From Echinicola strongylocentroti (GTDB lineage Bacteria > Bacteroidota > Bacteroidia > Cytophagales > Cyclobacteriaceae), in NCBI RefSeq assembly GCF_003260975.1, contig NZ_CP030041.1:1091001-1155000 (forward strand): DNA of 64,000 nt, in the 5' to 3' direction. The notes beneath the pieces were generated by a model, which was given only the letters and a program-made list of their open reading frames with translations, was not told the DNA's origin and made no database searches. Positions 464 through 63,496 of this stretch are shown piece by piece. How positions within the stretch are numbered: position 1 is the stretch's first letter; every line of letters starts with the position of its first letter. Both the position numbers and the translations under genes were made by a program.

Positions 464-511
464 ATTATTAATCTGATAGAGGCTTAATTAAATTTACATT
501 CATTACAAATA

Positions 512-536
512 TTCACCAGTTTAACCCTACTGGGGT
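512..536. promoter_or_regulatory. Shared 25-bp motif, copy 1 (upstream of recombinase operon)
   Basis: Reads TTCACCAGTT on one side and ACCCTACTGGGGT on the other, with two variable bases between. A second copy, identical at 23 of 25 positions, lies at 23887-23911 upstream of the tra operon. Arms CACC/AGT and ACT/GGTG make an imperfect inverted repeat, as expected of a regulator-binding site. It sits about 50 bp upstream of the small gene's start. Confidence 0.5.
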
Positions 537-622
537 ATAATATAAAAGCAATTATGAAATGACATTTCTCTTTTAATTAGCCCGACCTATCATCAGCTTA
601 AATAATCAGCAAAAAAAAGGGC

Positions 623-1093
623 TTATAGCCCTCCTTCATCAGCAAAGGAATAATAACTTTCCGCAGTGAGGATGATATGGTCCATTACCGGCAAATCCAA
701 AAGTTTGCCTGCTTTGACCATTTTATCGGTCAGGCGGTTGTCCTGTTCACTTGGCCGAAGGGTTCCGGAAGGGTGGTTGTGTGCTAGGATAATACAGGAA
801 GCAGACGCCTTCATGGCTGCAGCAAAGATCACTTTCAGATCCACTATGGTTCCACATGTCCCCCCGGAAGAGGCGTTTACTATGCCCAATACACGGTTTG
901 CCCGGTTGAGCAAGATTACTTTGAACTCTTCGATGAACTCCAATTTCGATTTTTCCCAGTTTGCCCTGAGCACCTTACTGGCACCAAGAGAAGAGACGAT
1001 CTGGGGTTTTTCGGAGACTTTTGAGTTAGGACGATAGCTTAACGTGATTTCGGCTACTTGGCTGGGAACGAAATTTGTGTTGTTGGTATCCAT
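623..1093 (-). CDS. radC: RadC-like JAB/JAMM domain protein of mobile elements
   Basis: A 156-residue protein carrying the JAMM metal-binding motif HNHPSGTLRPSEQD at residues 105-118, with the upstream conserved glutamates near residues 55-56 (FIEEFKVILLN). It consists of the RadC JAB domain without the helix-hairpin-helix part of chromosomal RadC, as is usual for copies on Bacteroidota conjugative elements and plasmids. The biochemical role of the family is unsettled (a metal-dependent hydrolase fold; association with DNA repair or incoming DNA is inferred). Its upstream region holds a ~128-bp element also found 44 bp upstream of ardC, so the two may be expressed together on entry into a new cell. 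Confidence 0.9.
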   Translation of the reverse strand: MDTNNTNFVPSQVAEITLSYRPNSKVSEKPQIVSSLGASKVLRANWEKSKLEFIEEFKVILLNRANRVLGIVNASSGGTCGTIVDLKVIFAAAMKASASCIILAHNHPSGTLRPSEQDNRLTDKMVKAGKLLDLPVMDHIILTAESYYSFADEGGL

Positions 1094-1134
1094 AACATTT
1101 CATGTTTTAGGTTAGAAATTAATTATGGACGCCT

Positions 1135-1262
1135 CCCAGCTTGAGGGCAACCAAGGCCAAGTGGCAACGGAATAAATGAAGGCACTGTGGGAAGCCCTGT
1201 GCTTATGCCGTAAGCTCATGGCCGCTCGGCAGGCCGAAAGCTAACTTTGTGGAGTGATTAAT
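1135..1262. repeat. Leader-like element, copy 1 (upstream of radC)
   Basis: A ~128-bp non-coding element starting 42 bp upstream of the radC ATG. Copies lie at 9773-9901 (about 85-90% identical by eye) and 59723-59850 (more diverged, upstream of ardC). Conserved blocks include CGGAATAAA, TTATGCCG and CTAACTTTG. A GGCA...TGCC arm pair is kept in all three copies although the sequence between the arms differs, which points to a folded RNA or single-stranded DNA structure. No convincing protein is encoded. Confidence 0.7.
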
Positions 1263-8596: not shown

Positions 8597-9205
8597 TCAA
8601 AAACCTGTTGGATTTAGGTCAGGTAACTGAGCAAGATTTTTTCTAATACGGCTAAGTGTTTCACGTTTAATTCCGAGATACGATGCGATGTGTTGAACAG
8701 GTGCTTTATTTACTATTTCTGGCTGCGACTCCAATAGATTTAAATAACGTTCTTGTGCTTGTTGCGAATTTAAACTATGTGCATAATTCCATAAAGAAAT
8801 GTATTCTTTTTCTATTTGGACCCTTACGATCCGTTCCCAAATAGGCTTCAACTTATATAGTTTTTGTAAACTGTCGTAATCGATAATAAAAAGTTCAGAC
8901 GCTTCTATGGCTTGTATTTGTATATTTGAAGGTGTTTGAGCAATAAAACTTTTAAAAGAGGAAGCCATTGAATTTGAAACACAGAAACAAGAAGTAATTT
9001 CATTTCCATTACTATCAAAATAAGAGCTTCGTAAAAGCCCTTTTTTAATATAGGCCATATGACGACAGGTTTTGTTATTTTCTACCCAAACTTCATTTTT
9101 CTTTAAATATCTATGGTTAAAAAACGGATGACTTTCTTCCCAATCCAAATCTGTGAATTCTGCATTAGACTTTAGGAATTCATGGAATTTATTTATGCTC
9201 TCCAT
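8597..9205 (-). CDS. Crp/Fnr-family transcriptional regulator (second copy)
   Basis: A protein of about 202 residues from the ATG at 9205 (MESINKFHEFLKS); a longer upstream start is possible but not supported by family length. It has a sensor domain (NNKTCRHMAYIKKGLL, SNGNEITSCFC) and a C-terminal helix-turn-helix (VQHIASYLGIKRETLSRIRKNL). It resembles the 5296-5865 regulator in plan and is probably a diverged paralogue. Three cysteines in the sensor part are noticeable, but no cluster motif can be claimed. Confidence 0.85.
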   Translation of the reverse strand: MESINKFHEFLKSNAEFTDLDWEESHPFFNHRYLKKNEVWVENNKTCRHMAYIKKGLLRSSYFDSNGNEITSCFCVSNSMASSFKSFIAQTPSNIQIQAIEASELFIIDYDSLQKLYKLKPIWERIVRVQIEKEYISLWNYAHSLNSQQAQERYLNLLESQPEIVNKAPVQHIASYLGIKRETLSRIRKNLAQLPDLNPTGF

Positions 9206-9772
9206 ATTTAGGTAATTTAAAATTTGGCTCTTTGCTACTTTGCAAATAAATGTAAATTGCCGCAACAATTATTCTGTCAAACAATTTGCCCCCGAAATAT
9301 CTTTTGTTGAACTTATAAATAAACTCAACCAAAATTAAACTGTATATATTTCCTGTTGCCAAGCGATCAATATCCAACAGGTTCGTTTTTAATTATTGAT
9401 TGCTGTTTGTAAACATTACGGTTTTGCAAGTCATTCAGTTTCCATTTATCAGCAAGCTCTTTATCAAATCCTTCTCCTTGCATGGGTGACAGGTTCTCCC
9501 TTGTCTGTGGGTATTAACGAGTAGGGACTGTTGTTTATCATTATCCCAACCGTCCCTGCACACTTCTTAGTATTCGTGGTTTTTTATTAGTCCTTCCGGG
9601 ATTGGAAAAAGGTAAGCTATATACAATCACCTTCCTAAGGAATATCAAATACTCGCTTTTTTCCGATCCTTTCATCGTTGTCTTCAACAAAATTGAAACG
9701 GCTTTCCAAGACTTCACATACTACCTTTTAATGAGGCACCAGCTCTATGACCATAATTTTACACAAGTGCAC
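9206..9772. other. Intergenic stretch, mostly featureless
   Basis: No gene is supported. Minus-strand fragments such as FDKELADKWKLNDLQNR followed by a stop near 9373 may be the tail of a lost gene, but I do not recognise it. An inverted repeat with CCTGTTG/CAACAGG arms lies at 9352-9381. Confidence 0.35.
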
Positions 9773-9901
9773 CCCAGCTTGAGGGCAATCAAGGCCATGT
9801 GGCAACGGAATAAATGAAGGCAATGTGGGAAGCCCCGCGTTTATGCCGGAATCTCATGGCCGCCCCTGCAGCCCGAAAGCTAACATTGTGGAATGATTAA
9901 T
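9773..9901. repeat. Leader-like element, copy 2 (right border of cargo island)
   Basis: A ~129-bp copy of the element at 1135-1262 in the same orientation, differing at roughly 15 positions by eye. The GGCA...TGCC arms and the inner GGG/CCC stem are kept. Unlike copies 1 and 3 it has no gene 40 bp away, and only unassigned sequence lies on its left. With copy 1 it brackets the 8.5-kb cargo. Confidence 0.7.
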
Positions 9902-19741: not shown

Positions 19742-20423
19742 GGATTTCCTTAAGTGTTTTGATTGCTCCCTTGGCATGGCTGCGCTGCCGTGTGATCAAT
19801 AGGTTCCGTTCATTGAACCGCATCAGGTCGTTGAGGTTGAAGCGGACCTTCTTTTCTACCCGGTCGATCAGGGCAAGCCGCTCGCCGTCGTTCATTTTCA
19901 GGTTAAAGGCGCTGACCACGCCGAGCACCTGTTCGAGGTTCCGCACCGAATGGTCAAGAATACCCAAATACACCTCTTCCATCCATCGCAGCTCATCTGC
20001 CGAGAACTGCCCGCTTGCCGTGATGTGCTGCCAAGCCTTTTGGTATTCGCCCACCAGTCGCCCCTGCATTTCGGCAATGTCCCTGACCTTTTGGTACTGG
20101 CTTATGGCACTCTTCACCTTCCAGAGCCCTTCGTAATAATCCCCGTAGAGGGTTTTCTGTCGCTCTCCCCACTCGGCGATCTCTTCGAGCTTGAGCTTGT
20201 TCAGGGCATTTTCAAGCACCTTCTGCGCATTCTGCAGCCATATCGTATTGTTCTGCATCCGCTGGATCTTCAGATCGATCGCCACAATGGCCTTTTTCAC
20301 CCCTTTGCGGATGATTTCCAGGATATAGGCCGGTACTGCCGCTTCGGTGCGGGGCATTTGCGGAGCCCCAAAAAACAGCAGCCCGGCCAATAATCCTGCT
20401 TTCCATACTTTTGCAAACTTCAT
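19734..20423 (-). CDS. traI: Conjugal transfer protein TraI (CTnDOT type), paralogue 1
   Basis: A 229-residue protein with a signal peptide (MKFAKVWKAGLLAGLLFFGA). The core includes KIQRMQNNTIWLQNAQKVLE, EIAEWGERQKTLYGDYYEGL and MNDGERLALIDRVEKKVRFN, the DUF4141-type TraI signature of Bacteroidota conjugative transposons. This is the periplasmic TraI of CTnDOT nomenclature, unrelated to the F-plasmid relaxase of the same name. It overlaps the end of traG by 4 bp. Two further diverged relatives follow in the same operon. Confidence 0.85.
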   Translation of the reverse strand: MKFAKVWKAGLLAGLLFFGAPQMPRTEAAVPAYILEIIRKGVKKAIVAIDLKIQRMQNNTIWLQNAQKVLENALNKLKLEEIAEWGERQKTLYGDYYEGLWKVKSAISQYQKVRDIAEMQGRLVGEYQKAWQHITASGQFSADELRWMEEVYLGILDHSVRNLEQVLGVVSAFNLKMNDGERLALIDRVEKKVRFNLNDLMRFNERNLLITRQRSHAKGAIKTLKEIHE

Positions 20424-22882
20424 CCCTGCCCTCCTTTCATTTCTGCGGCCACAGCCGCTATGCCTTTTTCCAATTTCCCGCCAAAGGCTTTGGCCCTTTC
20501 CTGCACCCTGAGCTTCTCCTTTTGCTCGGTGGTATAGGCCAAGTATTCCTCGGGCGACACCTCAGTGCGGTACACCTTGCCCACGGGGCCAAGGCCGATA
20601 AAGACTTCCTTGTACTTCCTGCCCGGCTCATTGGCCTTGTTGATCGACATGATCTGCATGGTCTCCTTTTCGGTAAGGCCCAACAGCTCCCGGATCCCGT
20701 CGAACTTGTTGCGGTATTTGGACTGGTCGAGTAGGATCTTGCAGTCGGAGTTGTTGATGATGGCCTGTTTGATAATGGGGCTGGAAATGATATCCTCTAC
20801 TTCCTGGGTCACCACTACGGCTTCGCCGAAGAACTTCCGGACCGTCTTGAACAAGTATTTTATATACTCGGCCATCCCCTCCTTGGCGATGGCCTTCCAG
20901 GCCTCTTCGATCAGGATCATCTTGCGCACGCCCTTTAACTTTCTCATCTTGGAAATGAAGATCTCCATGATGATCAGCGTCACCACCGGAAAAAGGATGG
21001 GATGGTCTTTTATATTGTCGAGCTCAAAGACGATAAAGCGCTGTTCGAGCAGGTCAAGGTTCTCTTTGGCATTGAGCAGGTAATCGAATTCCCCTCCCCT
21101 GTAATAGGGCCGGAGCACGTACAGGAAGTTGTCGATGTCAAAATCCCTGTCCTTTACGCCTTGCGCTTCCAACTGCTGTTTGAATCCGGTTGAACAGAAT
21201 TCAAAAAAGCTGTCAAAGCAGGGAAAGGTATCCAGCTGTTCATAATAGCTGCCAAGGGCATTGGAGATGGCCACGTACTCGCTGCGCGTAAAGGTCTCAT
21301 CGTCCTTTTTCCAGAGGGCCAAAAGCAGGGTCTTGATGCTTTCCTTTTTTTCGGTATCCAAGGGCCTTCCGCCCAGGTGGAAGGGATTGAAGCAGATGGG
21401 ATGGTCTTCTTCATAGGTAAAGTAATAACCGCCAGTCAGCTCACATAGGCCACGGTAGGAATGGCCCACGTCCACCAGCACCACATGGGCACCCTTGGCA
21501 TGGTAGCTGCGCACCATATGATTGGTAAAGAAGCTCTTGCCGCTGCCCGAGGGGCCGAGGATAAACTTGTTGCGATTCGTTATCCATCCCCGCTCCATGG
21601 GTTCATCGGAGAGGTCCACGTTGACAGGTTTTCCGGTCTGCCGGTCGCCCAGCCGCATACCGAATGGTGATGGACTGGAGATATAGCCCGTTTCCATGTT
21701 GAACAGGCAGCTTGCCTGTCGGCCAAAGGTCAGGAAAGTTTCTTCTATGGGAAGGGCTGCCGCATTGCCGGGGATCCCTGCCCAGAAGAGCTGCGGGGCG
21801 GCAAGGCTTTCCTCCTTGGCCACCGCATCGATCTTGGCAAAGGCCGCCCCGACCTTGTTGCGAATGGGTTTGGTCCCTTCCGGATCATCCGACCAGGCAA
21901 GGACATTGAAATGGGCCCTTACCGGCCGGCTGCCTTCGGTAATGCTTTCGTTCAGAAAGCCCTGTATCGCCTCTTTCGCATGCAGGTTGTCCCTGGAATA
22001 ATTGGCCAGGCTCTGCATGCGCAGGGCCCTGCTTTCGAGTTGTTTTGCCACCGCCTGACGGTTTTCCACGATCACATACTGGTTGTAGACATGGTCAATG
22101 TCCAGCAACTGCCCCAATGGAGCCGCCTGCCCGATGGCATAGGCCTGCTTGTCGCTGCTGTATTCTCCATAGGTGGTCCGATCGTGCAGCACATTGGGGA
22201 GGCTGTCCATTTCCGAAAGGGAAAACACCTTCACCTTGGAAGATCCAATCTGCAGTTCCGGCTTGAAGGCAATGTCCTTTACCCGTGGCTTTGCAGCAAA
22301 GGGATCCAAGAAAAGGTACCTTTCCAATAGCCCTGGCATATTGGAAGTGCCCAGGTAGTCGGTTTTGTCCAAGCGCTGGATTTCCATCCCGTTATCGGAG
22401 ACCAATTGGACAAATTGTCCCAGCACGTTTTCAAATTCCTCCAGTCTTTTGGTATCCAATAGCTCCGCGGAAAGAAATCTTGAGGAAAGCAGGTTGGAAG
22501 TGGCCAGGTCCGTTGGCCGCTTTCCTTTTCTTGGCAGGGTGAGGAACAGGTAGCAATGGTGTTCGAGATAGGGGCGTTCATGGAAGAACAGCCCACTGCT
22601 CCTGTCCAGGAAGCCTTGGTCTTCCTTTCGGACAAGCCCGTCGAACCGCTTTCTTGCAAACCAGTCCTGCTTGTGCAGCACCGTACCCTCCGGAAGGAGC
22701 CTGATCGCCTTGGCCCACCCCGATTGTAGGCCAGCATAGCCCGGGCCGTCATGGGTAAAGATTTCCGGCAGCTGCACTTCATGACCGGCGGTGATGTCCC
22801 CTGCCCCCGAGAGCAGGAACCCTTTTTCCAGCTTACTGATCGGAAACCAGGTGTTGATCTCTTTTACATTGGTGCTATCCAT
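20420..22882 (-). CDS. traG: Conjugation ATPase TraG (VirB4-like)
   Basis: About 820 residues from MDSTNVKEINTWFPISK; this start overlaps the traF end by 8 bp and matches the family N-terminus, while a reading 13 codons longer is possible. Walker A GPSGSGKS lies at residues 443-450, Walker B/DExx-like KMILIEEAWK near residue 650, and a conserved VTQEVEDIISSPIIKQAIIN sensor region follows. The N-terminal part (SKLEKGFLLSGAGDITAGHE) is typical of Bacteroidota TraG. It energises assembly and transport of the type IV channel at the inner membrane. In this nomenclature it is not the VirD4 coupling protein, which is encoded at 60225-62207. Confidence 0.95.
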   Translation of the reverse strand: MDSTNVKEINTWFPISKLEKGFLLSGAGDITAGHEVQLPEIFTHDGPGYAGLQSGWAKAIRLLPEGTVLHKQDWFARKRFDGLVRKEDQGFLDRSSGLFFHERPYLEHHCYLFLTLPRKGKRPTDLATSNLLSSRFLSAELLDTKRLEEFENVLGQFVQLVSDNGMEIQRLDKTDYLGTSNMPGLLERYLFLDPFAAKPRVKDIAFKPELQIGSSKVKVFSLSEMDSLPNVLHDRTTYGEYSSDKQAYAIGQAAPLGQLLDIDHVYNQYVIVENRQAVAKQLESRALRMQSLANYSRDNLHAKEAIQGFLNESITEGSRPVRAHFNVLAWSDDPEGTKPIRNKVGAAFAKIDAVAKEESLAAPQLFWAGIPGNAAALPIEETFLTFGRQASCLFNMETGYISSPSPFGMRLGDRQTGKPVNVDLSDEPMERGWITNRNKFILGPSGSGKSFFTNHMVRSYHAKGAHVVLVDVGHSYRGLCELTGGYYFTYEEDHPICFNPFHLGGRPLDTEKKESIKTLLLALWKKDDETFTRSEYVAISNALGSYYEQLDTFPCFDSFFEFCSTGFKQQLEAQGVKDRDFDIDNFLYVLRPYYRGGEFDYLLNAKENLDLLEQRFIVFELDNIKDHPILFPVVTLIIMEIFISKMRKLKGVRKMILIEEAWKAIAKEGMAEYIKYLFKTVRKFFGEAVVVTQEVEDIISSPIIKQAIINNSDCKILLDQSKYRNKFDGIRELLGLTEKETMQIMSINKANEPGRKYKEVFIGLGPVGKVYRTEVSPEEYLAYTTEQKEKLRVQERAKAFGGKLEKGIAAVAAEMKGGQG

Positions 22883-23201
22883 TTTTTTTACGGTTTGATT
22901 TCCTGATAAATTCCCTGTCACGCACCTTGATCCCCATGGGCACCCTGCGGTGGGCCATCCGCTTTTTCAGGCCATGTTCCCCGTATTTCAGGTTCATCCT
23001 GAATACTCCTTCGACAAGCAAATAGCCCATAAAGCCACAGGCCACCCCGTTGATCCAAAAGGATAGGCCCAGCACATAGCCCATCGCAAATACCAACAGC
23101 AATACCACCAGGCCAACGCCCAGGTAGAGGATATACTGTGCCTGCAGGCCTTTAAAGGAAATCGGCCTGTTGACGCCCTTGTTGACCGTATAGCGCTTCA
23201 T
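22875..23201 (-). CDS. traF: Conjugative transposon protein TraF (DUF4133, VirB3-like)
   Basis: A 108-residue membrane protein starting MKRYTVNKGVNRPISFKGLQ, the highly conserved TraF opening. Two helices follow (YILYLGVGLVVLLLVFAMGY, GVACGFMGYLLVEGVF) and then a basic tail (HGLKKRMAHRRVP). An upstream ATG giving a longer reading is rejected because it lies inside traE and lacks family similarity. TraF is the small inner-membrane partner of the TraG ATPase. It starts one base after the traE stop and overlaps traG. Confidence 0.92.
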   Translation of the reverse strand: MKRYTVNKGVNRPISFKGLQAQYILYLGVGLVVLLLVFAMGYVLGLSFWINGVACGFMGYLLVEGVFRMNLKYGEHGLKKRMAHRRVPMGIKVRDREFIRKSNRKKNG

Positions 23202-23833: not shown

Positions 23834-24003
23834 ATCCTTTTTTGGTTTGATGATGGGTCAAATCTCAAAAAGGCGGGAATAAAAATTTCACCAGTTGTAC
23901 CCTACTGGGGTGAAAAATGTTTGAAAACTTTATCTTGAAAGAGGCAATTACCTTTCAAGGGAAACATTTCATGGGCATTGGTCAAATTGAAAAAACAAAA
24001 AAA
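23834..24003 (-). promoter_or_regulatory. Upstream region of the tra operon
   Basis: A 170-bp gap between the lipoprotein gene and the first tra gene, both on the minus strand. It contains the 25-bp shared motif and AT-rich sequence on both sides. A CTTTCAAG...CTTTCAAG direct repeat-like pattern near 23936-23960 is also seen. The transcription start is not identified. Confidence 0.5.
23887..23911. promoter_or_regulatory. Shared 25-bp motif, copy 2 (upstream of tra operon)
   Basis: Same sequence as 512-536 except for two bases in the central spacer. It lies 54 bp upstream of the first tra start codon; copy 1 lies about 49 bp upstream of the recombinase-operon start. Conserved sequence, orientation and distance suggest one regulator controls both operons. 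Confidence 0.55.
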
Positions 24004-58773: not shown

Positions 58774-59679
58774 TCAGGTCAAATTCCCGGTCAGGTAATC
58801 CACGGCTTTCTGTGCCTTTCCGGCAGCTTCCACCAATAGCCGTTTGTCGTTTTTAAGCTGTCCCAGCCAATGCTTGATATAGACCGAGGAATTCTCCTGT
58901 TGGTCTTCCTCCCATATCCCGCACAGGTTGCCCAGGTAGCTTGCGCCCATCTCGGCGGTCAGTTCTTCGCGTGCGTAGCAGCCCTTCCCCTTACAGGAGG
59001 TATCCCAAAGCTCCTTACGGTCAAGCCTTTTTGGATGTCCGGTTCCGTGGATGACCTCGTGGTACAGGCACTGGTAATAGTGTTTTTCACTGTGGAACAG
59101 CTCCTTTTTGGGCATGTTGATATAGTCCTTTCTGGGATGGTAATAGGCCTGCGCTTCCCCGTGCCTGATCGCTGGAAGGTCGGGGGCATTCTGCAGCAGC
59201 TTCTCACAGGCCGCGATGGTTTGGAAAGGTGTTTTCTTAACGGTTTCGGGCATGACCCATTTGGCCCCATCGATATCCCCGATATTGAACACATTGTAAT
59301 ATTTCAGAAAGGCCTTTCTGTCAACTGTCCCCTTGGGCAGTTTCCGTGCTTCGGCCTCCGTCAGCTTTTCCCCAGTCCCCTTATGGCGGTAGACAAAGTT
59401 CCAATAGACCACCGGGACCGATTTGGCCCCTTTCCTGATTTTTGCGCCATAACCTTCGGCCTGTTTGAAGGTGAGGTAATACGGATAGGCATGGCCACAG
59501 CTGAGCAACAGCCACAGGTTGATGCCCTTGTAGACCTTTCCGGAATGGAAGTTTTTGGGAAGTCCCATCACTGACCAAGGCTGCTTCCATGGGACAATGC
59601 CCTTTTCAAGGCTGGCCATGATCCTTTCGTTGACGATCTGGTAAACATCTGTACGGGATTTTTTGCTTTGTCGCTTCAT
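58774..59679 (-). CDS. ardC: ArdC-like antirestriction protein (zincin-like)
   Basis: A 301-residue protein. The N-terminal ssDNA-binding-type domain (DVYQIVNERIMASLEKGIVP then WKQPW, landmark NLWLLLSCGHAYPYYLTFKQ) is followed by a metalloprotease-like domain with the zinc motif HEVIHGTGH (H207, E208, H211) and a downstream EELTAEMGASYL. ArdC proteins coat incoming single strands and protect conjugated DNA from restriction. It lies downstream of the mob genes on the same strand, as expected of a leading-region gene. The 44 bp before its start are preceded by copy 3 of the leader-like element. Confidence 0.9.
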   Translation of the reverse strand: MKRQSKKSRTDVYQIVNERIMASLEKGIVPWKQPWSVMGLPKNFHSGKVYKGINLWLLLSCGHAYPYYLTFKQAEGYGAKIRKGAKSVPVVYWNFVYRHKGTGEKLTEAEARKLPKGTVDRKAFLKYYNVFNIGDIDGAKWVMPETVKKTPFQTIAACEKLLQNAPDLPAIRHGEAQAYYHPRKDYINMPKKELFHSEKHYYQCLYHEVIHGTGHPKRLDRKELWDTSCKGKGCYAREELTAEMGASYLGNLCGIWEEDQQENSSVYIKHWLGQLKNDKRLLVEAAGKAQKAVDYLTGNLT

Positions 59680-59722
59680 AACGTTATCGTTTTTAAGTTG
59701 AAAGATTCAATTATGAAGCACC

Positions 59723-59850
59723 CCCAGGCTGCAGGGGACATTAAAGGCAAGGAGGATCGGAATAAACAAGCGGAGGAACGGCAAAGGCTTTATGCCGAAG
59801 TTCCTTGTCCTGTATGGAAACTGGCTGCCTAACTTTGCGGGATAACTGAA
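59723..59850. repeat. Leader-like element, copy 3 (upstream of ardC)
   Basis: Diverged copy of 1135-1262, keeping CGGAATAAA, TTTATGCCG and CTAACTTTG in order. The arms CGGCA/TGCCG pair here around a 9-base loop, and CCCC/GGGG arms sit at the gene-proximal end where copies 1 and 2 have CCC/GGG. It begins 44 bp from the ardC start; copy 1 begins 42 bp from the radC start. Confidence 0.65.
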
Positions 59851-60224: not shown

Positions 60225-62207
60225 CTACCTTTTTTGGATTATATACCTGGCCAGTCCCGGACTGTCCATCATCCGTTCGAGTTCGGACTCGACAAGCTCA
60301 TTGACCTCTGCCTTGATCCTTTTATAATTGTCGAGCACTTCGCCATCATCCAGCTTTCTACAGGCAGGAATCTCAAGGTACCCCTCCTCTTCCCTTTTAA
60401 GCCCTTCATGGTCATTGATGATCCTTGCATGAAAGCCCTTCAGCTTCATGGGCTGATCCGGTGTATCGGCCACCAGTCCCACAAACTCCCCTGAAGACAG
60501 GGATGCAATGGTGGACTGGGGCACTGCCAGGTCCAGTTGTACCGAATGGCTGATGGAGGTATCGTTGGAATTGACCGAGCGGCTTTGCCTCGGCTGCCTA
60601 ATCTTCCCAAAACGGTCGGACAGCTGTTTGGCCGTATCGCCCAGCACCTGTCCGGAGAGGATATTGCCCACGGTGTTCATGACGACCTCTGCTTGCTCCC
60701 TGCCATAGTCCTTTTTGAGCTGGCTATAATCCTGCACGCCCAGGCAGGTGGCCACTTTATTGCTCCTTGCCGTAGCGATCAGGTTGTCGATACCATTGAA
60801 ATAGATCGTGGGAAATTCATCAAAGATAAGGCTGGACTTGAGCTTTCCCTTTTGGTTGACCAGCTTGGTGATCCTGGAAATATAGAGTGACAGCACTGCC
60901 CCATAGACCTGCTGTTTTTGTGGATTGTTGCCCATGCAGATGATCTTTGGCTTTTGGGGGTTGTTGACATCCAAGGTAAATTCGCTTTCCGATAGCACAT
61001 AGTAGAGCTGTGGAGAGGACAGCCTGGCCATGGTGATCTTGGCACTGGCAATCTGTCCTTCAAGCTGGTCGGTGGCACCTTGCATGAAGGCCGATACAAA
61101 TGGGTTGATCAGCACTTCGATTTCCGGTTCGCATCGCAGCACCGAAAACAGTTTATCATAATCGGTCTGCATCATTTCGATGACATGGGGAAGGGTACAG
61201 TATTTCCCTTGTTTGTACCGCTTCAGGAACCAGATTACCGCAGTGAGGAAGTTGATGGGCGACTCCACAAAAAAGTCCCCCTGCTTTTTGATCCATTCGC
61301 GGTTGAGGCCCATCATGATGGTCCGGGAGGATTCGCTGGCATCGGTAATGTCCAGCATGGTGGACGGTTCCAGTGGATTGCAACGATGGCTCCGTGACAG
61401 GTCATCGAAGTTGATGGTATAAAACTTAGGGGAAACCGCATAAGCCGACTTATTGCGCAACAGGGCATTATAGGCAATGCGGGAAAGGTCGTCGTACTTG
61501 AAGTCATAGACGAACATGGAAAAGCCCTTGGCAATATGCTGGGTGATCACATGACGGATAACAAAGTAGCTCTTCCCAGAACCGGGCGTCCCCAGGACCA
61601 AAAGGGCACGGAAGGGGTTGATGATATTGATCCAGCTATTCTTGATTTTCCGTTTTAACTGGTATTGTGCAGGAAGGTTAATGGAATATTCATTGACCAG
61701 TTTTCTTTCCTCCTGGGGAAAGGTTTCGTTTTCGTGGTTGAACACCTCACTGCTTCCCCTGTCCCTAAGGTAACGTGACAGCCTCCCCCCTCCGTACAGG
61801 ACCAACAGGTATCCCACAAGCATTGTCACGGCATAAGTATATTCGGCAGCCAGGGGGCGCTCCAAAATCAGGCTGATGTGCGCAGAAGCCATAAAAAGCA
61901 GACCGCCAACCATCATGGTCACGGAGGCTGCTATCCAGCTTATGCGGACATCCTTTTTGCCCTTTGCCCCCAAGAGGCTTACCAAAAGCAGGCCAAGGGA
62001 CAGGTATTTCGCATATGTGCCCACTCCGAGAAAGGGCAGTTTGGCCAGGTCCTGCAAAAAGTTATCCGATAAGGGCAGCACCAAGCCCCAGCTACCAAAC
62101 AGCTGGGGAAGTTCAAGGTAGGCATGTACCAGCAAAATGAGGATGCTGAGCTTTCGGGTCAGGTCTAATATCTGGCGCAATGCCTGGAGATTTTCCCCTG
62201 TCGCCAT
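60225..62207 (-). CDS. mobC: Type IV coupling protein (MobC/TraG-type, VirD4-like)
   Basis: A 660-residue protein with four membrane helices in the first 145 residues (LILLVHAYLELPQLFGSW, YLSLGLLLVSLLG, WIAASVTMMVGGLLFMASAH, YAVTMLVGYLLVLYGG). Walker A is GTPGSGKS (206-213) and Walker B LIFDEFPTIYF. The conserved IATARSNKVATCLGVQDYSQ and a C-terminal FHARIINDHEG region follow. It docks the relaxase-DNA complex and pumps DNA through the TraE-N channel. It corresponds to MobC of CTnDOT. It starts 2 bp after the relaxase stop. Confidence 0.93.
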   Translation of the reverse strand: MATGENLQALRQILDLTRKLSILILLVHAYLELPQLFGSWGLVLPLSDNFLQDLAKLPFLGVGTYAKYLSLGLLLVSLLGAKGKKDVRISWIAASVTMMVGGLLFMASAHISLILERPLAAEYTYAVTMLVGYLLVLYGGGRLSRYLRDRGSSEVFNHENETFPQEERKLVNEYSINLPAQYQLKRKIKNSWINIINPFRALLVLGTPGSGKSYFVIRHVITQHIAKGFSMFVYDFKYDDLSRIAYNALLRNKSAYAVSPKFYTINFDDLSRSHRCNPLEPSTMLDITDASESSRTIMMGLNREWIKKQGDFFVESPINFLTAVIWFLKRYKQGKYCTLPHVIEMMQTDYDKLFSVLRCEPEIEVLINPFVSAFMQGATDQLEGQIASAKITMARLSSPQLYYVLSESEFTLDVNNPQKPKIICMGNNPQKQQVYGAVLSLYISRITKLVNQKGKLKSSLIFDEFPTIYFNGIDNLIATARSNKVATCLGVQDYSQLKKDYGREQAEVVMNTVGNILSGQVLGDTAKQLSDRFGKIRQPRQSRSVNSNDTSISHSVQLDLAVPQSTIASLSSGEFVGLVADTPDQPMKLKGFHARIINDHEGLKREEEGYLEIPACRKLDDGEVLDNYKRIKAEVNELVESELERMMDSPGLARYIIQKR

Positions 62208-62209
62208 GA

Positions 62210-63496
62210 TCAGGATAGTTTACGTCTCTTTTTCTTCTTTTTCTTTTGGTCAAGGGGCATTGCCATTTCCTGGGATTCCGGCCTTACCATTGCCTGTACT
62301 ACGGAAAGGATTCCGGACAGGACGGGGCTCTTTTCTGATTTCCAAACGGCGCCCTGTCGTCGCTTTTCGTTTTCCCCCTGTCTGGGGATACTTTCCTGTG
62401 CAGTGGCTTTACTGGGAACTGGCCGTACTTGCATTTCTAGGTCCAGGACCTTTTCTCCCAGGTGCTGCGCGGTCTTTTTTCCGCTCCAGATCCGCGAAAG
62501 TTCCGAGGCTTTGCAGACGGTCCTGTTGACATGGTCAATAATGGTCAGCCCGAACACCTCCCCTGCGCTGCTGTAATGGAACTGTGCGGCAAGCCCCTTT
62601 TTCGTAAGTTCCTGTTGGAAGTGCTCCATGCCCTTTCCAGCTGAATGTTGCAGGGCATTTTCAACGCCCACTCTCATGGCCGCCATTCCTTTCAGCTTTG
62701 TACGCTGGTTACGCTCCATCCTTTTCTGCAGCCGTTCCATTGTGGGACGGGCATAAAGGGCACTGGCCTTGATGGGCACACCGAGCCTTCTTCCTTTGCT
62801 GTCCAAGACCGCGTAGGCAAGCCCGTTGTTTTCCTTCATACTGCTTCCTTCTTCCCCTTGGATCAGTCCCACGTTGAACTGTCCGAGGACAGCACTGAAT
62901 TCCCCCAGGGAAGTATAGGCATAGCTGCGCATCACTTCGGTGATGACATTTGACATGGCTGCCTTGGTTTCTTTTTTGCCGTACTCAATCGGTGCAAGGG
63001 GCTCCATCGGAAGCCGTTGTCCTTGTTGCCTTTCGGCCTTGACCAGTCCGAGTTCCTTCTCCAGCTGCTTTCTGGCCTTTTCCGACTTGTCCTTTCCCAG
63101 ATTGTGGGTCTCGATCCTTTTACCTTCCCGGGTGATATTGGTGGAAACGATATGGACATGGGGATGTGCCGCATCGTCATGGCGGTAGACCAGGCAGGGC
63201 TGTCCGCCAAAGCCGACCTGCTCCATATAGCTTTGGGCAATATAGCGCATCTGGTCATCGTCCAGTTTATCTTTAGGGGAAAAGTTCAGGGAGACATGGA
63301 AGGCGTTCAGTTTGGCCCTTTTGTTCCTATCGGTAAAGTACTTGAAACGGCGGTGTTTTTCCTTGATGGGAGCACCTGTTCCCCCAGCTCCGAAACCGGC
63401 AGCGGACAGGACTTTGGCCTTGCCCTGCCGGACCTTTTCCTCGTTATAGTGGAGCAGCCCAAGTATATTCCTTCCCAAGCTGATCCTGGCTACCAT
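62210..63496 (-). CDS. mobB: Relaxase (MobB/MOBP-type mobilization nuclease)
   Basis: A 428-residue protein. It has an N-terminal candidate tyrosine (LLHYNEEKV, Y17), the three-histidine metal motif in YRHDDAAHPHVHIVSTN (H111/H113/H115), and KAKVLSAAGF and NAFHVSLNFSPKD segments typical of Bacteroidota MobB. The C-terminal part ends in a poly-lysine stretch (DQKKKKKKRRKLS). It nicks one strand at oriT and stays attached to the 5' end. It overlaps the relaxosome gene by 7 bp. The oriT itself is expected close to this cluster but was not identified. Confidence 0.93.
   Translation of the reverse strand: MVARISLGRNILGLLHYNEEKVRQGKAKVLSAAGFGAGGTGAPIKEKHRRFKYFTDRNKRAKLNAFHVSLNFSPKDKLDDDQMRYIAQSYMEQVGFGGQPCLVYRHDDAAHPHVHIVSTNITREGKRIETHNLGKDKSEKARKQLEKELGLVKAERQQGQRLPMEPLAPIEYGKKETKAAMSNVITEVMRSYAYTSLGEFSAVLGQFNVGLIQGEEGSSMKENNGLAYAVLDSKGRRLGVPIKASALYARPTMERLQKRMERNQRTKLKGMAAMRVGVENALQHSAGKGMEHFQQELTKKGLAAQFHYSSAGEVFGLTIIDHVNRTVCKASELSRIWSGKKTAQHLGEKVLDLEMQVRPVPSKATAQESIPRQGENEKRRQGAVWKSEKSPVLSGILSVVQAMVRPESQEMAMPLDQKKKKKKRRKLS

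Follow-up and report, generated by a model that had tools for sequence, protein, structure and literature searches.

A covarying DNA hairpin upstream of radC and ardC is a candidate single-strand promoter of Bacteroidota conjugative elements

Early gene expression from the strand that enters a new host is known for the plasmids F and ColIb-P9 (excerpts of PMC9849209). In these systems, a hairpin of the entering strand, Frpo or ssi, rebuilds both promoter boxes, and F carries two Frpo copies, each ahead of its own genes (excerpts of PMC9849209 and PMC11541004). The housekeeping sigma factor of Bacteroidota uses TAnnTTTG at -12 to -5 and TTTG near -33 (excerpts of PMC9723704 and PMC7366714). Since the published large-scale search for Frpo used known Frpo sequences and an E. 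coli consensus, as described in the available part of PMC11541004, it is not expected to find a Bacteroidota element. The word "Bacteroid-" is absent from the available portions of PMC11541004 and PMC12826799, and among the titles and abstract openings of the open-access literature we found no earlier report of a Bacteroidota single-strand promoter.

Here, we describe an element of about 145 nt that, judged by the available descriptions of Frpo/ssi, resembles them as a putative box-reconstituting hairpin before ssb, anti-restriction and related establishment genes. Unlike Frpo, it has a TTG near -33 and TAnnTTTG at -7 instead of TTGACA/TATAAT, its -7 box is unpaired from -11 on, and it occurs in up to 15 copies per genome. 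With the conventional Bacteroidota promoter (sigma-ABfr) it shares TAnnTTTG at -7 and TTTG near -33 (excerpts of PMC7366714 and PMC9723704), whereas its -7 box lies on the opposite strand, at the far end of an inverted repeat, and would reach the gene by folding only.

The window, i.e. the whole 64,000-nt stretch of the Echinicola strongylocentroti genome that was analysed, is part of a 6.25-Mb chromosome and holds a conjugative element with a relaxase, a coupling protein, a TraG-like ATPase, ardC and radC. The hairpin element occurs in it three times, always on the minus strand, and stands upstream of both radC and ardC. A preliminary description of this DNA had placed it before these two genes, correctly: both copies point towards the start codons (ATG at 1093 and 59679) at nearly equal distances (41 and 43 bp, given earlier as 42-44 bp), keep three shared words in order, and share start-side sequence running on towards the ATG. 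The third copy that it counted is real as well. This copy looks like an orphan because its start-side sequence is lost and the nearest sizeable ORF (8597-9268) is about 490 bp off. All three were scored with a covariance model, R1, whose structure was written by hand. From 63 first copies, five without the core were dropped; the other 58 comprised 52 distinct sequences, and 29 of these, the three window copies included, entered R1. The window copies reach 140, 134 and 89 bits and the best other match 14.8 bits. The features of the window are as follows.

1118-1262, minus strand: radC element, whole hairpin, candidate single-strand promoter (R1 match 1118-1261, 140.3 bits)
1242-1249, plus strand: far-arm -7 box TAACTTTG of the radC element (sequence; motif and pairing statistics); the T at 1242 is -12 and paired, the remaining bases are unpaired
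1238-1242, unstranded: far arm AAGCT of the radC base stem, pairing with 1138-1142 (covarying helices 1 and 2)
1138-1142, unstranded: gene-proximal arm of the radC base stem, 1138 being -12 (covarying helices 1 and 2)
1158-1160, minus strand: -33 TTG on the gene-proximal arm of the radC element, positions -34 to -32 (modal TTG position -34)
1168-1176, plus strand: conserved core arm CGGAATAAA (sense TTTATTCCG) of the radC element, near-invariant stem with one C.T mismatch
1202-1210, plus strand: conserved core arm CTTATGCCG (sense CGGCATAAG) of the radC element, near-invariant stem
1126, minus strand: predicted transcription start A of radC, 33 nt 5' of the start codon, deduced from the box at -12 to -5
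623-1093, minus strand: radC, RadC-like JAB domain (PF04002, E 7.8e-35), ATG at 1093
9756-9900, minus strand: putative orphan copy (R1, 134.5 bits) with -7 box TAACATTG, one change
20420-22921: TraG-like ATPase of the conjugative element
58774-59679, minus strand: ardC, ArdC N-terminal domain (PF08401, E 3.7e-27) and zincin-like metallopeptidase (PF18818, E 2.9e-32), ATG at 59679
59706-59849, minus strand: ardC element, candidate single-strand promoter (R1, 88.9 bits)
59714, minus strand: predicted transcription start A of ardC, 35 nt 5' of the start codon
59726-59729, unstranded: gene-proximal arm of the ardC base stem, pairing with 59827-59830
59827-59830, unstranded: far arm of the ardC base stem, pairing with 59726-59729
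59830-59837, plus strand: far-arm -7 box TAACTTTG of the ardC element (sequence; motif and pairing statistics)
60225-62207, minus strand: conjugative coupling protein, between relaxase and ardC (PF02534 and PF14293)
62210-63496, minus strand: relaxase (PF03432, E 2.6e-30), on the strand common to all three elements

A separate inverted repeat, CCATAA..TTATGG (TCATAA..TTATGA at ardC), covers the predicted start site and the start codon at 1091-1127, at 59677-59715 and in many other copies. Its flanking base is complementary in 53 of 57 cases; since the copies mostly fall into two groups (C-G and T-A), this covariation is not independent.

Is the element a peculiarity of this genome? By blastn, 13 of 59 genomes (this one among them) contain it, with at most 11 copies each, two of the 13 resting on a match of 20-25 bases alone. 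Among relatives, R1 gave 102 matches; they are spread over 21 of 98 genomes, counting this one, and 13 of 81 genera, with as many as 15 copies in one genome. A phylum-wide sample had positives in 37 of 392 genomes (22 of 179 genera), all of them within the host's own class. A gene-blind DNA pattern derived from the core (CGGCATAAA, 8-38 bases, TTTATTCCGWTNC) matched at least 120 genome stretches and, in addition, 13 stretches of a viral collection. Among the 80 genome matches listed for this pattern, 75 carry names that we take to be Bacteroidota. The matches L225, L245, L268, L269 and L288 are metagenome bins labelled Chlorobiota, Proteobacteria, Pelotomaculum, Parvularcula and Planctomycetaceae, for which either horizontal transfer or a binning error may account. 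A blastn search of plasmids gave no match for the radC copy and two short ones for a Flavobacteriaceae copy, among them the one that pointed us to a second hairpin family described below.

Structure and boxes were analysed in two alignments, both fitted to a model that includes the box columns. Alignment A3 draws on 79 sources, the window and 78 of 175 loci; short versions (L001-L051, L106-L135) and near-identical or partial copies (e.g. L064, L067-L069, L086, L089, L090, L092-L094, L097, L152, L154-L157) were left out. The antisense match L075 is counted among its 88 rows (87 distinct) for covariation and was dropped for the mismatch, gene, box, mispair, TTG and leader, pairing-break and gene-direction counts. 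Alignment A4 holds the 108 copies that R1 found on 93 pattern-found loci (the 80 listed genome stretches and the 13 viral ones); these loci lie outside R1, were picked regardless of genes, and provide the main independent test. Copies of A4 without letters at the helix edge were dropped, leaving 95 of 108 for the far-arm box count and 94 of 108 for the TTG, start and leader, and pairing-break counts. Too little upstream sequence removed 2 copies from the gene-direction box count and 10 of the 195 copies of both alignments from the count of outward genes.

In both alignments covariation, the check proposed in the preliminary description, is strong. In the 87 distinct rows of A3, 87.6% of cells pair and changes on both sides of a pair number 268, compared with 84.5 ± 6.7 in shuffles; the covariation score is 0.304 (0.111 in shuffles, at most 0.104 when slid). 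In the 104 distinct rows of A4, 86.5% pair, with 495 both-side changes (180.6 ± 11.8 in shuffles) and a score of 0.342 (shuffles 0.113, slid 0.089). Two measures are unremarkable or weak: in A3, 61 of 500 shuffles had as many pairs showing a both-side change, and in A4, 24 of 500 equalled the further pair types. The core stem CGG-ATAAA/TTTAT-CCG is near-invariant, with a fixed C.T mismatch in 86 of 87 copies, and the base stem and the -33 stem vary with compensating changes (e.g. AGCTT/AAGCT, CGCTT/AAGCG, CCGGTTA/TAACCGG, AGCCCCTTT/AAAGGGGCT). The apical part is variable; the GGCA...TGCC arms, which had earlier been taken for the conserved pairing, belong to this compared apical part, and that assignment was wrong. 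The covariation in two sets indicates that the single strand would fold into a conserved stem-loop. RNAalifold on a MAFFT alignment recovered the conserved core stem alone; misalignment of the base stem is the probable reason. In predicted stability as DNA folds, the three window copies do not significantly exceed shuffled sequences (z of -0.46, -0.52 and -1.13 on the presumed transferred strand), and minimum free energy, for which the window copies are ordinary, was set aside as too weak a form of evidence. An identity as an Rfam family was likewise rejected: the window gave no match at gathering scores, and below them the two elements gave none or chance-level matches.

Where the base stem ends, the far arm carries TAnnTTTG, in the reading direction opposite to that of the gene. 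The box is perfect in 35 of 87 copies (A3) and 45 of 95 (A4), compared with 0.1% in shuffles, with variation at both n positions. Searched likewise, the gene-proximal arm has no perfect box (0/87 and 0/95), and 2 and 10 boxes one letter short. Perfect boxes in the gene's direction are scarce throughout: 3/87 and 1/106 within 100 bp 5' of the element (shuffles expect 6.8 and 5.5), 1/87 and 0/106 inside it, and 0/87 and 0/106 between element and start codon, all below the shuffle means; none is present in the three window copies. By comparison, 38/87 and 49/106 copies contain one on the element's opposite strand. Folding would bring the promoter boxes of the host to the gene, in whose direction the duplex is nearly without them.

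The position of the box relative to the helix is precise. Pairing is found in 79-87% (A3) and 68-91% (A4) of copies at -15 to -12 and in 6% and 17% at -11 (87 and 94 copies), where the columns are conservedly non-complementary and 4% (A3) and 13% (A4) would be expected from composition. Beyond -11, pairing is near or somewhat above expectation, and weak pairing returns at about +3 to +9. The helix breaks between -12 and -11 and therefore ends at the onset of promoter melting. On the gene-proximal arm a TTG has its mode at -34 (40/87 and 30/94) and is absent in 13 and 15 copies. The predicted start is an A in 52/87 (A3) and 40/94 (A4), and a predicted leader of 29-36 nt precedes 35 of 48 RadC and 13 of 15 ArdC genes in A3, and 11 of 22 RadC, 12 of 12 ParB and 4 of 7 short DUF932 genes in A4. 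For DUF6943, SSB and long DUF932, most start codons are farther off, at 43-117 nt.

Which genes follow the element? Gene families rest on single linkage by blastp to representatives that had been tested against Pfam. Behind the 195 copies stand RadC (74), ArdC (18), DUF6943 (15), DUF932 (14) and ParB (12), more rarely SSB (5), DUF6876 (3) and C5 DNA methylase (2); the other 52 have another gene or none, 12 of 87 in A3 and 40 of 108 in A4. In the gene-blind A4 alone, 68 of 108 copies precede a gene of these eight families. A check by phmmer with one representative each recovered 71 of 74 RadC, 17 of 18 ArdC and all members of the five other clusters tested. In the locus L359, elements stand in tandem, one per gene, before ParB-like, DUF932-like and 64-residue genes with an SSB-like ORF beyond, labels that rest on sequence likeness rather than on Pfam. 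The linkage to leading-region genes anticipated in the preliminary description is thus borne out in other elements by copies before ssb, ardC, parB, radC, DUF932 and methylase genes, and the element appears to be a companion of leading-region genes such as ssb and anti-restriction genes. The cluster of 15 downstream genes that proved to be DUF6943 includes, for example, L252:1439-1897. Being recurrent behind the element, DUF6943, DUF6876 and DUF932 are candidates for establishment or anti-defence functions.

The orientation of the element follows that of the relaxase. Within 30 kb, element and nearest relaxase share a strand in all 35 cases among close relatives (26 relaxases) and in 19 of 20 in the class-wide set (18 relaxases), together 54 of 55, and within 60 kb they do so in 52 of 53 among close relatives, all against a strand background that is not 50% (42 of 59 window ORFs lie on the relaxase strand, 10 of 22 in the last 30 kb). 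The lone class-wide exception within 30 kb has, by eye, a transposase-like ORF of 359 residues 0.7 kb further on. In the plasmid-borne element of Bacteroides ovatus, radC and ardA lie on the strand of mob and the tra genes on the opposite one. According to the available text of PMC11541004, the relaxase gene is usually in the part that enters last, and the orientation of leading genes allows them to be transcribed from the entering strand. By this rule and the co-orientation with the relaxase, we therefore infer that the template strand of the gene is the transferred strand. The side is less uniform: within 30 kb of the relaxase, 15 of 20 elements lie upstream of it class-wide, and among close relatives 11 of 35 lie upstream and 24 of 35 downstream. 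The ardC copies, 3-5 kb downstream of the relaxase, are on the side that usually comes in last and would enter late.

Near the relaxase we also noted a conserved block, ACCCTACTGGGGT near AACTGGTGAAT, found in the window at 505-540 (minus strand) and 23899-23911. In eight loci (L176-L178, L181-L185) it lies about 690-730 bp upstream of the relaxase domain, and its orientation is constant, whether it stands before mob genes, near tra genes or directly behind radC. The block may be oriT or, since ACCCTACTGGGGT is present also at 524 and 23899, an operator.

The second hairpin family, with the core AAATCTCCAC..CGGGT.GTATTT, is unrelated in sequence to the R1 family. Its first member lies upstream of radC (annotated as a JAB-domain protein) in Bacteroides ovatus NZ_CP081918.1 (L361:14846-14995), a region in which R1 has no match; others are L375-L390. 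The B. ovatus hairpin folds with a z of -3.66 (opposite strand) and -3.38 (sense strand); it has TATTTTTG at the base and contains a three-base block that pairs as T.G on the opposite strand only. With one mismatch allowed, the core pattern occurs 16 times in 10 of 395 genomes, and the reversed pattern has no match among the matches listed for these 395 genomes. Like the R1 family, this one carries a far-arm TAnnTTTG, perfect within the 75-nt far arm in 13 of 16 copies (a raw count), and stands before ssb, ardA and DUF6943 genes as well as the radC of B. ovatus: by likeness, six SSB, two DUF6943, one ArdA and one RadC genes follow its copies. Pfam, run on 50-residue starts, confirmed one SSB, one DUF6943 and the ArdA, and gave no match for the RadC start at that length. 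Unlike in the R1 family, the -7 box itself is, by eye, largely paired in the ssb-type copies. The two families, the second less deeply examined, suggest a general design rather than one repeated sequence.

Could the conserved fold act in the RNA rather than in the DNA? The transcripts of radC, ardC and the other genes might carry a structured leader that acts as riboswitch, attenuator or translational control; the sense strand can form the same stems, and such a leader would be placed just where the element is found, directly upstream of start codons. RNA helices tolerate G.U pairs. Here, however, G.U is about as depleted as A.C: sense-strand mispairs amount to 63 G.U and 67 A.C cells in A3 and to 41 (of 173 expected) and 99 (of 251) in A4, where A.C is the better tolerated. 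The A3 base helix by itself leans to the sense strand (G.T 15 of 18.3 expected, A.C 5 of 12.3). The cluster-weighted ratio of G.U to A.C is 0.91 (0.71-1.14), that of the -33 stem 0.63 (0.37-1.06), and this weighted comparison does not separate the two DNA strands; the absence of an overall G.U excess over A.C disfavours selection on the mRNA. A leader would moreover need a promoter upstream, where perfect -7 boxes within 100 bp are no commoner than in shuffles, and the element is common to genes of unrelated function. We regard such a leader as improbable. The preliminary description had offered promoter and RNA leader side by side; the far-arm -7 box at the helix edge, the near absence of such boxes in the gene's direction and the lack of a G.U excess favour the promoter, and its reading as a Bacteroidota single-strand promoter is supported at the level of sequence.

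The far-arm box, which often has a TTG on the same strand (modal spacers of 22 in 37/87 and 20 in 26/94 copies), could also belong to an ordinary double-stranded promoter firing away from radC and ardC to yield antisense or divergent RNA. Such a promoter could do without a covarying stem ending at -12, however, and leaves the recurrent gene set on the other side unexplained. On its own side, 139 of 185 copies have no divergent ORF of at least 60 aa starting within 250 bp, and no gene family recurs much among the 185, the largest having 5 members; we give this reading very little credence. Somewhat different is the idea that the hairpin mainly recruits a polymerase or primase for second-strand priming, gene expression being secondary. 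Frpo also yields replication primers, to go by the title of Masai and Arai (1997), and copies occur on both sides of the relaxase, the gene-less orphan at 9756-9900 among them. Yet in 93 of 195 copies the distance from the end of the model to the start codon picked by script is 15-32 nt, and 143 of 195 precede a narrow set of gene families, neither of which priming alone would need, so that a role mainly as initiation site seems to us unlikely to a similar degree as an RNA leader.

We conclude that the element is probably a promoter for single-stranded DNA, and predict transcription from it. What the sequences show is that the hairpin covaries, that the box is present and where it lies, that the helix breaks between -12 and -11, which genes follow and that the strand is biased; which strand enters, its use by the polymerase, the timing and the shut-off are what we infer. 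The transferred strand, presumably the plus strand in the window, would fold into a hairpin of about 120 nt while single-stranded, and the arms of this hairpin would mimic the strands of a promoter, the gene-proximal arm acting as template and the far arm as non-template strand. The inner stem would supply the TTG at -33, the base stem would stop at -12, and the far-arm TAnnTTTG, unpaired from -11 on, would resemble a promoter that is already open. From there, an RNA polymerase carrying the housekeeping sigma factor of Bacteroidota would start about 30-36 nt before radC, ardC or parB. Because the gene's direction is without a -7 box, we propose that the gene is off in double-stranded DNA, and second-strand synthesis would shut it off after entry. 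The anti-restriction and establishment genes could in this way act first in the new host.

Beyond this locus, we think it likely, though with less confidence than for the element itself, that conjugative elements of Bacteroidota show a phylum-wide zygotic induction, in which at least two unrelated families of promoter-mimicking hairpins, built around the housekeeping -7 box and in the first family open from -11, switch on ssb, ardA, ardC, parB, radC, DUF932 and DUF6943 genes solely during the single-stranded phase of the incoming DNA; unknown genes behind such hairpins would then be candidates for a role in establishment or anti-defence. The hairpin would be a natural fork-junction substrate for the unusual polymerase of the Bacteroidota, and the element a sequence handle by which the first-expressed genes, including DUF6943, DUF6876 and DUF932, may be found. 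If true, this would account for the way in which Bacteroidota elements of the gut and the environment could produce anti-restriction and SSB proteins while still single-stranded.
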